A DNA stretch of 64,000 bases, taken from contig NZ_JARDUB010000001.1 of NCBI RefSeq assembly GCF_029360665.1, positions 558,001 through 622,000 on the forward strand, written 5' to 3'. The translations under genes and the position numbers were made by a program. The notes beneath the pieces are model-generated. The model was not told where the DNA came from, did no database searches, and worked only from the letters and a program-made list of their open reading frames with translations. This document shows positions 11,590 to 15,210 of this stretch, one piece after another. How positions within the stretch are numbered: position 1 is the stretch's first letter; every line of letters starts with the position of its first letter. Origin of the DNA: Eudoraea chungangensis (lineage in GTDB: Bacteria > Bacteroidota > Bacteroidia > Flavobacteriales > Flavobacteriaceae).

Positions 11590-13488
11590 ATGAGTGATGC
11601 TATTAAACACGAATGTGGTGTTTCACTAATCCGATTGCTAAAACCATTAGATTATTACAGGGATAAATACGGCTCTGACTTCTTTGGTGTAAATAAGATG
11701 TATCTGATGATGGAAAAGCAGCACAATCGTGGTCAGGATGGAGCTGGTTTTGCAAGTATTAAATTAGATATGTTACCAGGGGAAAGGTATATGAGTCGTG
11801 TAAGGTCTATCGCTTCCCAACCAATACAGGATATATTTGATCAAATCAATAATAGAATTAATACCGCCCTTGAAGAACACCCGGAATATATAGGAAACAC
11901 AGAACTTCAAAAAAAACACATTCCCTATATCGGCGAAGTATTACTCGGACACGTTCGCTATGGCACATTTGGAAAAAACAGCATAGAAAGTGTTCATCCT
12001 TTCCTAAGGCAGAATAATTGGATGCATAGAAATTTAATTGTCGCTGGGAATTTCAACATGACTAATGTAGATGAGCTATTTGACAATTTAGTTCAGTTGG
12101 GGCAACATCCTAAGGAAATGGCAGATACCATAACCGTAATGGAAAAAATAGGGCATTTCCTAGATGATGCAGTAGCCAAGCTTTACAGGCAAATAAAGAA
12201 AGAAGGATTTACTAAAATGGAGGCCTCGCCTTTGATTGCAGATAGACTTAAGGTTGGTAAAATATTAAAAAAAGCAGCAAAAAACTGGGATGGAGGCTAT
12301 ACCATGGCAGGCTTGTTTGGGCATGGAGATGCCTTTGTCTTAAGAGATCCGGCGGGTATTAGACCAGCTTATTATTTTAAAAACGACGAAATTGTTGTAG
12401 TTGCTTCAGAAAGACCGGCAATACAAACCGTATTTAATGTCGACTACGATGAAATACAAGAAATTAATCCGGGAAATGCTCTTATTATCAAAAAAAATGG
12501 TATCGTAAAGGAGACTCAAATACTTGAGCCAACAGAACGAAAAGCATGCTCTTTTGAAAGAATATACTTTTCCAGAGGAAGTGATAAAGAAATATACCAA
12601 GAAAGAAAGAACCTAGGAAAATTAATTTTTCCTCAGATTCTTAAGGCGATAGACGAGGATATCAAAAATACGGTCTTCTCCTATATTCCAAATACTGCGG
12701 AAACTTCTTTCCTCGGGATGGTAAAAGAAGCCCAGAATTATTTAAACAAAAAGAAAGAAGAGCAAATATTAACTCTAGGTAGAACAATTAGCAGAGAAGA
12801 ACTCCATAATATACTGGAGATAAGACCTCGGATCGAGAAAGTAGCTATTAAAGACGCCAAGCTAAGAACATTCATTACCCAAGACAGCAGTCGAGACGAT
12901 TTAGTGGCGCATGTTTATGATGTTTCTTATGGCTCTGTTAAGGAAGACGACAATCTCGTGATTATAGATGATAGTATTGTACGAGGCACCACCCTCAAGA
13001 AAAGTATTTTAAAAATTCTTGATAGACTATCTCCAAAAAAGATAATAGTAGTATCCTCTGCTCCACAGATCAGGTATCCGGACTGTTATGGAATAGATAT
13101 GGCAAAATTGGAAGACTTTATTGCATTCAAGGCCGCTTTGGCACTGCATAAAGAAAAAAACACCATGCATCTTGTGGATGAGATTTATACTAAATGTAAA
13201 AGTCAATTAAATACAGCAGATAAAGATGTGATTAACTATGTCAAGGATTTTTACAAACCATTTTCTGCAGAACAAATCTCCGAGAAAATTGGCCAATTGT
13301 TAAGTCATCCTGAAATGAAAGCAGAAGTACAAATAATTTTTCAAACCATAGAATCTTTACACCAAGCATGTCCAAAAAATCTTGGGGATTGGTACTTTAC
13401 CGGCAACTATCCCACCCCTGGTGGCAATAGAGTTGTTAACAAAGCCTTTATTAATTTTTACGAAGGTAAAAACGAACGCGCATACTAA
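11590..13488 (+). CDS. Divergent PurF-like amidophosphoribosyltransferase (class II glutamine amidotransferase)
   Basis: 632 residues, longer than ordinary PurF (roughly 470-510). The class II glutaminase domain begins after a short propeptide: Cys9 in HECGVSLIRLL, then EKQHNRGQDGAGFAS, GHVRYGTFG and the YYF/SERPAIQT segments. The phosphoribosyltransferase half keeps the PRPP loop VIIDDSIVRGTTL and the RYPDCYGIDM segment of PurF. The usual PVPDSG-type segment is replaced by SYIPNTAETSFLGM, and about 100 extra residues follow the PRPP domain. It may be a second PurF-type enzyme with a changed acceptor or a regulatory role. Start ATG 11590 places the nucleophilic Cys at residue 9. An inverted repeat follows the stop. 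Confidence 0.82.
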   Translation: MSDAIKHECGVSLIRLLKPLDYYRDKYGSDFFGVNKMYLMMEKQHNRGQDGAGFASIKLDMLPGERYMSRVRSIASQPIQDIFDQINNRINTALEEHPEYIGNTELQKKHIPYIGEVLLGHVRYGTFGKNSIESVHPFLRQNNWMHRNLIVAGNFNMTNVDELFDNLVQLGQHPKEMADTITVMEKIGHFLDDAVAKLYRQIKKEGFTKMEASPLIADRLKVGKILKKAAKNWDGGYTMAGLFGHGDAFVLRDPAGIRPAYYFKNDEIVVVASERPAIQTVFNVDYDEIQEINPGNALIIKKNGIVKETQILEPTERKACSFERIYFSRGSDKEIYQERKNLGKLIFPQILKAIDEDIKNTVFSYIPNTAETSFLGMVKEAQNYLNKKKEEQILTLGRTISREELHNILEIRPRIEKVAIKDAKLRTFITQDSSRDDLVAHVYDVSYGSVKEDDNLVIIDDSIVRGTTLKKSILKILDRLSPKKIIVVSSAPQIRYPDCYGIDMAKLEDFIAFKAALALHKEKNTMHLVDEIYTKCKSQLNTADKDVINYVKDFYKPFSAEQISEKIGQLLSHPEMKAEVQIIFQTIESLHQACPKNLGDWYFTGNYPTPGGNRVVNKAFINFYEGKNERAY

Positions 13489-13491
13489 GTT

Positions 13492-13531
13492 TTATCGATG
13501 AAATGCATAAAATCGTGCATTTCATCGATAA
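13492..13531. repeat. Perfect 16-bp inverted repeat after the PurF-like gene
   Basis: Two 16-base arms (13492-13507 and 13516-13531; outer part TTATCGATGAAATGCA) with an 8-base spacer, starting 3 nt after the stop codon. It should form a very stable hairpin in the mRNA. It lacks a proper T run, so it may protect the 3' end or act as a terminator by another route; a palindromic protein-binding site is also possible. Confidence 0.6.
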
Positions 13532-13590
13532 TATGTGTTGTTTAACGGCTTTATAGTCCTATAGCCCCCTTGGAGTTTACTTTAGTTTCG

Positions 13591-13662
13591 CCATAGCATA
13601 AGTAGGTTAAGTTCATGGTAAGATTTGGGGCAAAAAAGGTGGAGACTTCTCCACCTTTTTTA
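13591..13662 (+). ncRNA. Putative small RNA, array copy 1
   Basis: The core begins CCATAGCATAAGTAGG and ends GATTTGGGG at 13630. The terminator stem is GGTGGAG/CTCCACC (13638-13644, 13649-13655), flanked by A and T runs. The -7 box is TACTTTAG at 13578-13585, 5 nt before the core. This copy lacks the upstream AGGCGTTTATC element seen in copies 2-4. Confidence 0.68.
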
Positions 13663-13750
13663 TTTACTACAACTCCCAATTCTAGCTGTAGGAGTATTCT
13701 TTAATAAAAATAGTACTATTAAGCCCTTTTCACTTTTAAACTTATAAACA

Positions 13751-13761
13751 AGGCGTTTATC
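13751..13761 (+). promoter_or_regulatory. Conserved element 55 nt upstream of small RNA copy 2
   Basis: AGGCGTTTATC starts exactly 55 nt before the core of copy 2. The same 11-mer lies at the same distance before copies 3 and 4. It sits upstream of where the -33 region would be, so it may be an activator site. Confidence 0.4.
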
Positions 13762-13805
13762 TAAATTCTTTCCTGAGGCTGACACTTCCATATATATTTG
13801 AAGAA

Positions 13806-13874
13806 CCATAGCATAAGTAGGTTAAGTTCATGGTAAGATTTGGGGAAAAAGGTAGGCGAAAGCCTGCCTTTTTT
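13806..13874 (+). ncRNA. Putative small RNA, array copy 2
   Basis: Core 13806-13845 is identical to copies 1, 3 and 4. Its -7 box TATATTTG (13793-13800) is an exact consensus match, the best in the array. The terminator stem is GGTAGGC/GCCTGCC with a GAAA loop and one G-U pair, then six T. Confidence 0.72.
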
Positions 13875-13976
13875 ATTTCGGTTATAGCCGGTCTTCAATA
13901 GTTCCAAATATCCATTACACTTATATCATACAAAATTGTTCTGCTTTTCTCTCCCAAGCCATTTAACCCATTTAAT

Positions 13977-13987
13977 AGGCGTTTATC
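13977..13987 (+). promoter_or_regulatory. Conserved element 55 nt upstream of small RNA copy 3
   Basis: Second instance of AGGCGTTTATC, again starting exactly 55 nt before the core. It lies inside the 150-nt block shared with copy 4. Confidence 0.4.
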
Positions 13988-14031
13988 CAATACATTTTTA
14001 TGATACTATCCCTTAGCTTACTTTCGAAGAA

Positions 14032-14100
14032 CCATAGCATAAGTAGGTTAAGTTCATGGTAAGATTTGGGGAAAAAGGTAGGCAGTAGCCTGCCTTTTTT
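14032..14100 (+). ncRNA. Putative small RNA, array copy 3
   Basis: Core 14032-14071, -7-like box TACTTTCG (14019-14026, one mismatch). The terminator stem is GGTAGGC/GCCTGCC (14077-14083, 14088-14094) with loop AGTA and six T. RNA and promoter are almost identical to copy 4. Confidence 0.7.
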
Positions 14101-14203
14101 ATTTCCGAAAAAAAAGGTTTTCAATAGTCTGTACTATCCATTTTTCTTACTCCACAAAAAATATATCCCATTTCTCCCTCCCAAGTTCTTTAACCCATTT
14201 AAT

Positions 14204-14214
14204 AGGCGTTTATC
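14204..14214 (+). promoter_or_regulatory. Conserved element 55 nt upstream of small RNA copy 4
   Basis: Third instance of AGGCGTTTATC at exactly 55 nt before the core. Confidence 0.4.
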
Positions 14215-14258
14215 CAATACATTTTTATGATCCCATCCCTTAGCTTACTTTCGAAGAA

Positions 14259-14327
14259 CCATAGCATAAGTAGGTTAAGTTCATGGTAAGATTTGGGGAA
14301 AAAGGTAGGCAGTAGCCTGCCTTTTTT
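14259..14327 (+). ncRNA. Putative small RNA, array copy 4
   Basis: Core 14259-14298, -7-like box TACTTTCG 5 nt upstream, terminator 14304-14327 with the same stem and AGTA loop as copy 3. The predicted transcript is the same as that of copy 3. Confidence 0.7.
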
Positions 14328-14426
14328 ATTTCTGATTATCAAGAATTTATGCCCATTATAGTCTTTATTATAGGGACAAAAGGAGCGGAATAAAGGGTTC
14401 AAAAGTCTAAAAATTCACAAATTTTC

Positions 14427-14457
14427 TTTGTTATTTCTCACAATACCAGTAATTTAG
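14427..14457 (+). promoter_or_regulatory. Promoter of small RNA copy 5
   Basis: TTTG (14427-14430), a 19-nt spacer and TAATTTAG (14450-14457) match the Bacteroidetes promoter layout, with one mismatch in the -7 box. It ends 5 nt before the core. Confidence 0.55.
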
Positions 14458-14462
14458 TAATG

Positions 14463-14533
14463 CCATAGCATAAGTAGGTTAAGTTTATGGTAAGATTTGG
14501 GACGAAAAGGGTGGAGACTTCTCCGCCCTTTTC
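14463..14533 (+). ncRNA. Putative small RNA, array copy 5
   Basis: Core with one substitution (GTTTATGG instead of GTTCATGG), which extends the possible CCAT/ATGG closing stem of the core to CCATA/TATGG. The terminator stem is GGGTGGAG/CTCCGCCC with loop ACTT, the type of copy 1 lengthened by one pair. The AGGCGTTTATC element is absent. Confidence 0.66.
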
Positions 14534-14536
14534 TAT

Positions 14537-14579
14537 TAAAAAAAAAATCATCCAATTTAAATTGGATGATTTTTTTTTA
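14537..14579. terminator. Bidirectional terminator between the small-RNA array and sodB
   Basis: A perfect 24-nt palindrome (14547-14570, outer half ATCATCCAATTT) flanked by A on one side and T on the other, so it forms a stem with a U run on either strand. It should end sodB transcription and back up the last small RNA. Confidence 0.75.
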
Positions 14580-14601: not shown

Positions 14602-15210
14602 TTATTTATTTGCAGCGTACAATTCCGAAACTTTAGACCAATTAATAAGATTAAAAAATGCCTCAACATAGTCTGGTCTTCTATTCTGGTAATTCAAATA
14701 ATAAGCGTGTTCCCAAACATCCAAACCAAGTATAGGTGTACCACCACACGAAACACCAGGCATTAATGGGTTGTCCTGATTTGGAGTAGAGCATACCTCT
14801 ACCTTCCCTCCAGGGTGCACACAAAGCCAAGCCCAACCTGAGCCAAATCTAGTTCCAGCGGCTGCACTGAAGGTCTTTTTAAACTCTTCAAATGATCCAT
14901 ATGCTTCATCAATTGCCTCTGCCAGTTGTCCTTCTGGACTTCCTCCTCCGTTAGGTGACATTATTTCCCAAAATAAGGAATGATTATAAAAACCTCCTCC
15001 ATTGTTTCGTACTGCCCCATTGTCCATATCCAAATTGGCAAGTATATCTAAAATTGAAGAGTTTTCTAATGTAGTATTTGCAATAGCTGCATTTAACTTA
15101 GAAGTATAGCCATTGTGATGCTTTGTATGGTGTATTTCCATCGTTCTAGCATCAATATAAGGTTCTAACGCGTCATAGGCGTAAGGTAATTTAGGTAATT
15201 CAAATGCCAT
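14602..15210 (-). CDS. sodB: Superoxide dismutase (Fe/Mn family, Mn-like signature)
   Basis: Dismutates superoxide in the cytoplasm. The 202 residues include all four metal ligands: His27 (IHHTKHH), His77 (FYNHSLFW), Asp164 and His168 ([14 protein letters not shown]). The glutamine in TPNQDNPL (Gln145) sits where Mn-type enzymes keep their outer-sphere Gln, and PNGGGSPEG also looks Mn-type; metal preference cannot be proven from sequence. The gene symbol is therefore provisional (sodA is equally defensible). It stands alone, with a strong terminator behind it. Confidence 0.95.

Follow-up and report, generated by a model that had tools for sequence, protein, structure and literature searches.

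In this study we describe an array of five near-identical small RNA genes in Eudoraea chungangensis, for which we computed the genes, their conservation, their complementarity to mRNAs and the position of this complementarity at start codons. The best explanation of the array is that it encodes multicopy trans-acting sRNAs that would block the translation of envelope mRNAs and that come with a candidate sponge RNA (probability about 0.78). As such, the array RNA is best read as a new family of multicopy trans-acting sRNAs. It might work like the Bacteroides RNA FopS, while a kinship with FopS was not upheld.

The array and its RNA genes

The window is a stretch of 64,000 nucleotides (G000:C1:558001-622000), part of a genome of 3.73 Mb. 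In the ORF listing the array lies in a gap of 1,113 bases between a purF-like and a superoxide dismutase (SOD)-like gene, both named after their sequences. Coordinates, strands and features are:

11590..13488, +, purF-like gene, left flank, co-oriented with the array (flank in 86 of 86 two-flank loci among the matches listed)
13492..13531, +, hairpin 3' of purF, separating purF from the array
13578..13585, +, -7 box TACTTTAG of copy 1 (type A)
13590..13661, +, sRNA copy 1 (type A): 5' hairpin, single-stranded GAUUUGGGG, terminator at 13632-13661
13597..13607, +, pairing segment 1 of copy 1, CAUAAGUAGGU, complement of ACCUACUUAUG
13622..13630, +, pairing segment 2 of copy 1, GAUUUGGGG, complement of CCCCAAAUC
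13793..13800, +, -7 box TATATTTG of copy 2
13805..13874, +, sRNA copy 2 (type B), terminator at 13845-13874
14019..14026, +, -7 box TACTTTCG of copy 3
14031..14100, +, sRNA copy 3 (type B)
14246..14253, +, -7 box TACTTTCG of copy 4
14258..14327, +, sRNA copy 4 (type B), terminator at 14298-14327
14427..14457, +, promoter of copy 5, made up of TTTG, 19 nt and TAATTTAG; type C copies of other genera keep its box and spacer
14462..14534, +, sRNA copy 5 (type C: UUUAUGG, GGGAC)
14539..14578, no strand, perfect inverted repeat bearing A and T runs, situated between copy 5 and SOD and likely to terminate in both directions
14602..15210, -, SOD-like gene, right flank, convergent with the array

The five-copy array of the original prediction is real: its 39-nt cores (CCATAGCATAAGTAGGTTAAGTTYATGGTAAGATTTGGG) start at 13591, 13806, 14032, 14259 and 14463 on the forward strand, and their spacing (215, 226, 227 and 204 bp) is as had been claimed. 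No cores appeared in 100 shuffles of the sequence, and the whole genome holds just these five (up to 3 mismatches to a 35-nt core). As predicted, the -7 box ends 5 nt upstream of the core in all five copies, a hairpin and T run follow every core, and no protein frame explains the array; three mechanical ORFs of 50-67 aa overlap it and none tracks the repeats. Four cores had been called identical and one a variant. The variant is copy 5, with a C>T change in the core, and it differs also in the base after GGG. The flanks had been described as diverged, which is not true of all of them: over a length of 177 nt, copies 3 and 4 share 92% identity. The selection on the RNA sequence that had been claimed is borne out across genera, while copies 3 and 4 owe their likeness in part to recent duplication. 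The family consists of near-identical copies, each with a promoter and a terminator, as in a multicopy sRNA.

In Flavobacterium psychrophilum the sigma-A box lies at -12 to -5 (PMC9723704), and we therefore placed the RNA 5' end at the base before CCAU; for copy 1 the predicted end, inferred from the -7 box, is 13590. Boxes in the array are TAnnTTTG-like, and of 279 copies (named loci, among the matches listed) 214 carry TAnnTTnG exactly 5 nt upstream of the core. The predicted fold has a 5' hairpin with an ACCAU/AUGGU base, after which come UAAGAUUUGGGG, which is single-stranded, and the terminator hairpin. All five predicted RNAs fold better than every one of 200 shuffles, with z scores of -4.2 to -4.9. 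Among 58 copies taken from genomes of the family, the terminator has changed on both sides at 7 pairs, and almost none of the core pairs have. Given this covarying stem, the anatomy and the cross-genus conservation, the view that each copy is an sRNA gene of about 70 nt with a promoter and a terminator of its own, predicted from sequence, stands. The loop of copy 1 at 13597-13610 reads AGUAGGUUA, which we take to resemble a tRNA D-loop and to which we assign no meaning; AAGUAGGU, presumably like a Shine-Dalgarno sequence, was set aside.

The bases after GGG differ by type, A being the purF-side, B the middle and C the SOD-side type. Type C copies carry UUUAUGG, and those of different genera have about 35 upstream bases in common, the promoter spacer included (consensus of 70 copies, among the matches listed). 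Because these bases and the copy's own promoter are conserved, the SOD-side copy is probably regulated apart from the others. We also noted that at 14427-14457, as in type C promoters elsewhere, the entire spacer is kept, beyond the -33/-7 boxes. This conservation of the whole spacer suggests a bound regulator, which is putative.

Conservation in the Flavobacteriaceae

The core (up to 3 mismatches in 30 nt) was found in 93 of 249 genomes of the family and in 89 of 235 genera. In a search with model R1, the matches listed include 72 same-family genomes, of which 60 (row count) reached E 4.5e-9 or better, 5 matched weakly and 7 showed no match; other families of the order reached no better than E 4.9e-4. 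With model R2 and 392 genomes of the phylum, just two weak matches (E 2e-4 and 9e-4) fell outside the family. The RNA is Flavobacteriaceae-wide in both searches, with no strong match in other families. Diverged tandem copies occur in the large genus g146, which we took for Flavobacterium and whose RNA reads CAUUAGUAGG.

When relatives were searched for the core and its copy number, as had been suggested, the array proved to be kept at purF-SOD. Our survey comprised at least 119 named stretches (both flank genes visible in 86, one in 30, none in 3), and in 86 of 86 two-flank loci among the matches listed purF and SOD enclose the counted copies, which run sense to purF, with SOD convergent. These loci, again among the matches listed, hold one copy in 25 cases, two in 6, three in 31, four in 17, five in 5 and six in 2, all of them lower bounds because variants are missed. 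Dose control by copy number is a plausible candidate role. Core copies away from purF-SOD, or without those genes in view, were noted at L169, L173 and L208, and solitary copies exist elsewhere, one example being G256:C68:215988. A search for phage or plasmid transfer of the array gave no match. AGUAGG and AUUUGGG, the stretches that vary least among the diverged copies, are inside the two mRNA-matching segments.

Complementarity at start codons and a candidate sponge

The RNA has two nearly invariant segments, and their complements (ACCUACUUAUG and CCCAAAUC) are found at the starts of genes for surface or secreted proteins that belong to recurrent families. As the invariant parts of the RNA are complements of start sites and the targets recur, base pairing at start codons is supported. 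The target scan used 16 genomes, hand-chosen among the core carriers, and covered about 1/8 of the E. chungangensis genome; a simple ORF rule served to call starts, and secretion was judged mostly by eye.

Start pairing via GUUCAUGGUA, a candidate inspired by FopS, gave no clear signal in seed counts or duplex energies. Its single-seed test had 33 matches, 5 of them the array itself, which leaves 28 non-self matches vs 22 in the control. An undirected duplex test (359 genes of the E. chungangensis genome, 29 TonB-receptor starts) was mostly null, with 27, 23 and 35 of 60 shuffles as good for the kernel, and of the six core measures a single one came close to significance (2 of 60); the strongest single duplexes were inspected and dropped. 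Likewise, the enrichment of CCCCAAATC before ATG in 4 genomes was too low to stand alone. Two of the CCCCAAATC rows also bore the hairpin-loop complement ACCTACTTATG at start codons, and a scan of E. chungangensis sequence gave a third case; the loop complement was then tested alone.

The pattern CCTACTTATGD yielded 97 rows in the 16 genomes, of which one is an sRNA copy and was dropped. Start-like positions were found for 31 of the remaining 96 CCTACTTATG sites, compared with 302 of the 6588 ATGs that served as controls within those loci (p 8e-18). Without the two discovery cases, 29/94 were start-like vs 16/403 for permuted 7-mers (p 1e-12), a control that stood at 17/568 with the RNA's own antisense strand included, and with homologous starts collapsed the figure was 14/79 (p 6e-5). 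The number of sites was not raised, neither for CCTACTTATG (97 rows vs 145 for the backward pattern, 16 genomes) nor for the two-part pattern (about 80 non-self vs 68, 8 genomes); the enrichment is confined to position at starts. CCCAAA, the complement of the single-stranded segment, played no part in picking these sites and lies up to 60 nt upstream of 14/31 starts, 4/65 non-start sites and 4/359 other starts of the E. chungangensis genome. For CCCAAATC, within the same distance, the counts in these three sets were 9, 2 and 0. In 8 of 64 two-part sites a start follows within 15 nt downstream, and in five more, found by eye, the start codon is inside the site (L457, L458, L498, L493, L497). 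The duplexes of ten example targets are predicted at -25 to -35 kcal/mol. A test for compensatory sites (CCTACTA before ATG) in 400 kb of one diverged genome, G427, yielded neither these nor sites of the original kind. The matching site for the CAUUAGUAGG-type Flavobacterium RNA would be CCTACTAATG, at the starts of homologous genes.

Judged by eye, 27 of the 31 start-like targets open with a signal peptide or lipoprotein signal; the other four are not envelope-like (L372, a histidine kinase; L407, RteC; L389; L420). Homologous targets recur in several genera, with L310, L458 and L486 as members from the E. chungangensis genome, so that complementarity is concentrated at recurrent mRNA starts. 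With domains assigned by Pfam and NCBIfam matches, the target clusters are:

SCSKDxDLL lipoproteins with Ig-like or beta-helix domains, several genera
CSDETTV lipoproteins with LVIVD repeat, E. chungangensis member L310
AQEIP..SDRYKYST proteins, several genera
NNDPIxGIWS small lipoproteins, several genera
Ig/SprB-repeat proteins, several genera
106-107-aa protein with type IX sorting domain, E. chungangensis member L458
160-aa membrane protein, E. chungangensis member L486
29-41-aa membrane ORF, missed by the length rule, several genera

The last of these, the NNYIVLFCFFAICFV membrane ORF, starts at the target motif in three genera (L373 1508-1630, L390 1415-1504, L447 1487-1573) and is likely an unannotated small protein. 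A 33-aa ORF in the E. chungangensis genome (L384 1406-1504) opens with both target motifs.

Some sites precede a terminator, not a start. At G000:C4:313372 in the E. chungangensis genome (L307 13372) we found a short element made up of a CATCTTTG box, a stretch of about 34 nt that complements the core, and a terminator; it is conserved at the same place in Eudoraea adriatica (L488). The element/core duplexes of the two genomes reach -36.7 and -39.0 kcal/mol, with 0 of 1000 shuffled cores as good, and a loose scan of a 464-kb sample of the E. chungangensis genome revealed no second element. As a candidate sponge RNA, it probably titrates the sRNA. Sponges of sRNAs are short, terminated and complementary to their sRNA, and so is this element, which is predicted from sequence only. 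Longer elements with several complementary sites are present in Zobellia (L499) and in G082 (L491, three tandem units). Upstream of these sponge-like elements (L491 600-1850; L499, reverse strand, about 1390-1500) G082 and Zobellia share two TTCACAACA-like direct repeats about 21 bp apart and a TTACAnTGTAA dyad, which we take to resemble sites of LytTR-type regulators.

We propose that each copy would be transcribed, as its Bacteroidota-type sigma-A promoter and intrinsic terminator predict, into its own RNA of about 70 nt. CAUAAGUAGGU, in and beside the 5' hairpin loop, would pair with ACCUACUUAUG, the AUG therein being the start codon. The other segment, GAUUUGGGG, which is single-stranded and precedes the terminator, would pair with CCCAAAUC upstream of the start codon. 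Such pairing should block the initiation of translation of mRNAs for type IX secretion cargo, adhesin-like proteins and lipoproteins of the surface. Having several copies would provide a higher dose, and the element at G000:C4:313372, complementary to almost the whole core, is predicted to titrate the sRNA. Repression rather than activation is predicted by analogy, because pairing of FopS at the start blocks translation (PMC11697453). We hold it slightly more probable than its opposite that all this forms a family-wide surface circuit, in which a one-locus array would pair with CCCAAAUC/ACCUACUUAUG around the starts of lipoprotein, adhesin and type IX cargo genes and would be opposed by dedicated target-mimicking sponge RNAs.

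Relation to known RNAs and alternative explanations

In Rfam 15 the sole match of the whole window at gathering score is a tRNA, so the array RNA is neither Flavo-1, which the original prediction had considered, nor another Rfam 15 family. Matches below the threshold (STnc40, sraA, FopS and others) rest mostly on the terminator. FopS are paralogous Bacteroides sRNAs that block translation by pairing at the start, and they resemble the array RNA in being multicopy and about 65-70 nt long, in their sigma-A-type promoters and Rho-independent terminators, and in pairing, predicted or shown, at the start codons of envelope-protein mRNAs (PMC11697453). Hence one might see in the array a Flavobacteriaceae branch of FopS, with SusC-like targets bound via UUCAUGGUA..GAUUU and an RRM protein as antagonist. 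RF04319 does align UUCAUGGUA, AGAUUU and GG with the array RNA, the Eudoraea core is locally similar to the consensus of FopS at a level that just 5/1000 shuffled cores and 8/1000 shuffled FopS reached, and both RNAs are multicopy, about 70 nt long and have sigma-A-type promoters. However, the FopS (RF04319) covariance model gave the array 19.8 and 17.4 bits vs a gathering score of 56, and in the whole genome it found nothing over the cut-off, scored up to 25.1 elsewhere and did not place the array among the ten best places listed. The Flavobacterium-type core has no similarity to FopS (621/1000 shuffles as good), and the FopS R1' seed has a partial likeness in the Eudoraea core and none in the Flavobacterium-type core. 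The genome has no match for an RRM_1 protein such as the FopS partner RbpB, while two control genomes do; the 29 TonB-receptor starts show no excess pairing, with other envelope mRNAs matching at the start; and the start-codon match falls in another segment. Homology to FopS, raised by the sub-threshold alignment, was not upheld by the RRM_1 search, the genome scores and the shuffles, and we consider it unlikely. Unlike FopS, the array RNA has a 5' hairpin predicted in all five copies (the FopS 5' end is single-stranded), no model match, different pairing segments and no RRM_1 protein in its genome; it forms one tandem array instead of scattered loci, its predicted targets are other than SusC, and it comes with a small element complementary to it.

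For the protein sponge that had first been suggested we found no evidence; the invariant segments match mRNA start regions instead. A role mainly in titrating an RNA-binding protein, with mRNA complementarity as a secondary matter, would fit the near-invariant core of about 30 nt across genera, the several copies and the structured 5' end, but the invariant stretches are complements of start regions, two separate complements co-occur at the same starts and no partner was found in a search that covered RRM_1; this makes the role quite unlikely. That the sRNA pairs with its targets and activates or stabilises them seems very unlikely, given that pairing covers the start codon itself, which is repressive in FopS (PMC11697453). 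Untranscribed repeats, either DNA elements or inactive remnants, have a practically negligible chance, with a promoter box at fixed distance in 214 of 279 copies among the matches listed, terminators kept through paired changes and a core kept across genera.

Blocking of envelope mRNAs by multicopy sRNAs thus remains our preferred reading, and other bacteria offer parallels for it. Listeria LhrC and Vibrio Qrr are tandem multicopy sRNAs, which like the array have near-identical copies, a promoter and a terminator for each, and pairing at translation starts, but they are of unrelated sequence and from other phyla, whereas the array is fixed at one place across a family. Rfp18 of Flavobacterium psychrophilum is, like the array RNA, a conserved flavobacterial sRNA with predicted mRNA pairing; it is described as acting on metalloprotease mRNAs with its third stem-loop, whereas the array RNA has one hairpin and the terminator (PMC9723704). 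In a search of openly accessible papers we found no earlier description of the array RNA.

In conclusion, our findings suggest a new RNA system that would control the bacterial surface. Flavobacteriaceae are major marine polysaccharide degraders and depend on large sets of surface proteins; to our knowledge, little is known about small-RNA control in this family. If our reading is true, one conserved RNA would control part of the surface set across the Flavobacteriaceae, its target sites would be legible in the sequence and a natural antagonist would be available. Culturable genera, Zobellia and Maribacter among them, would then allow tests of how envelope composition is controlled.
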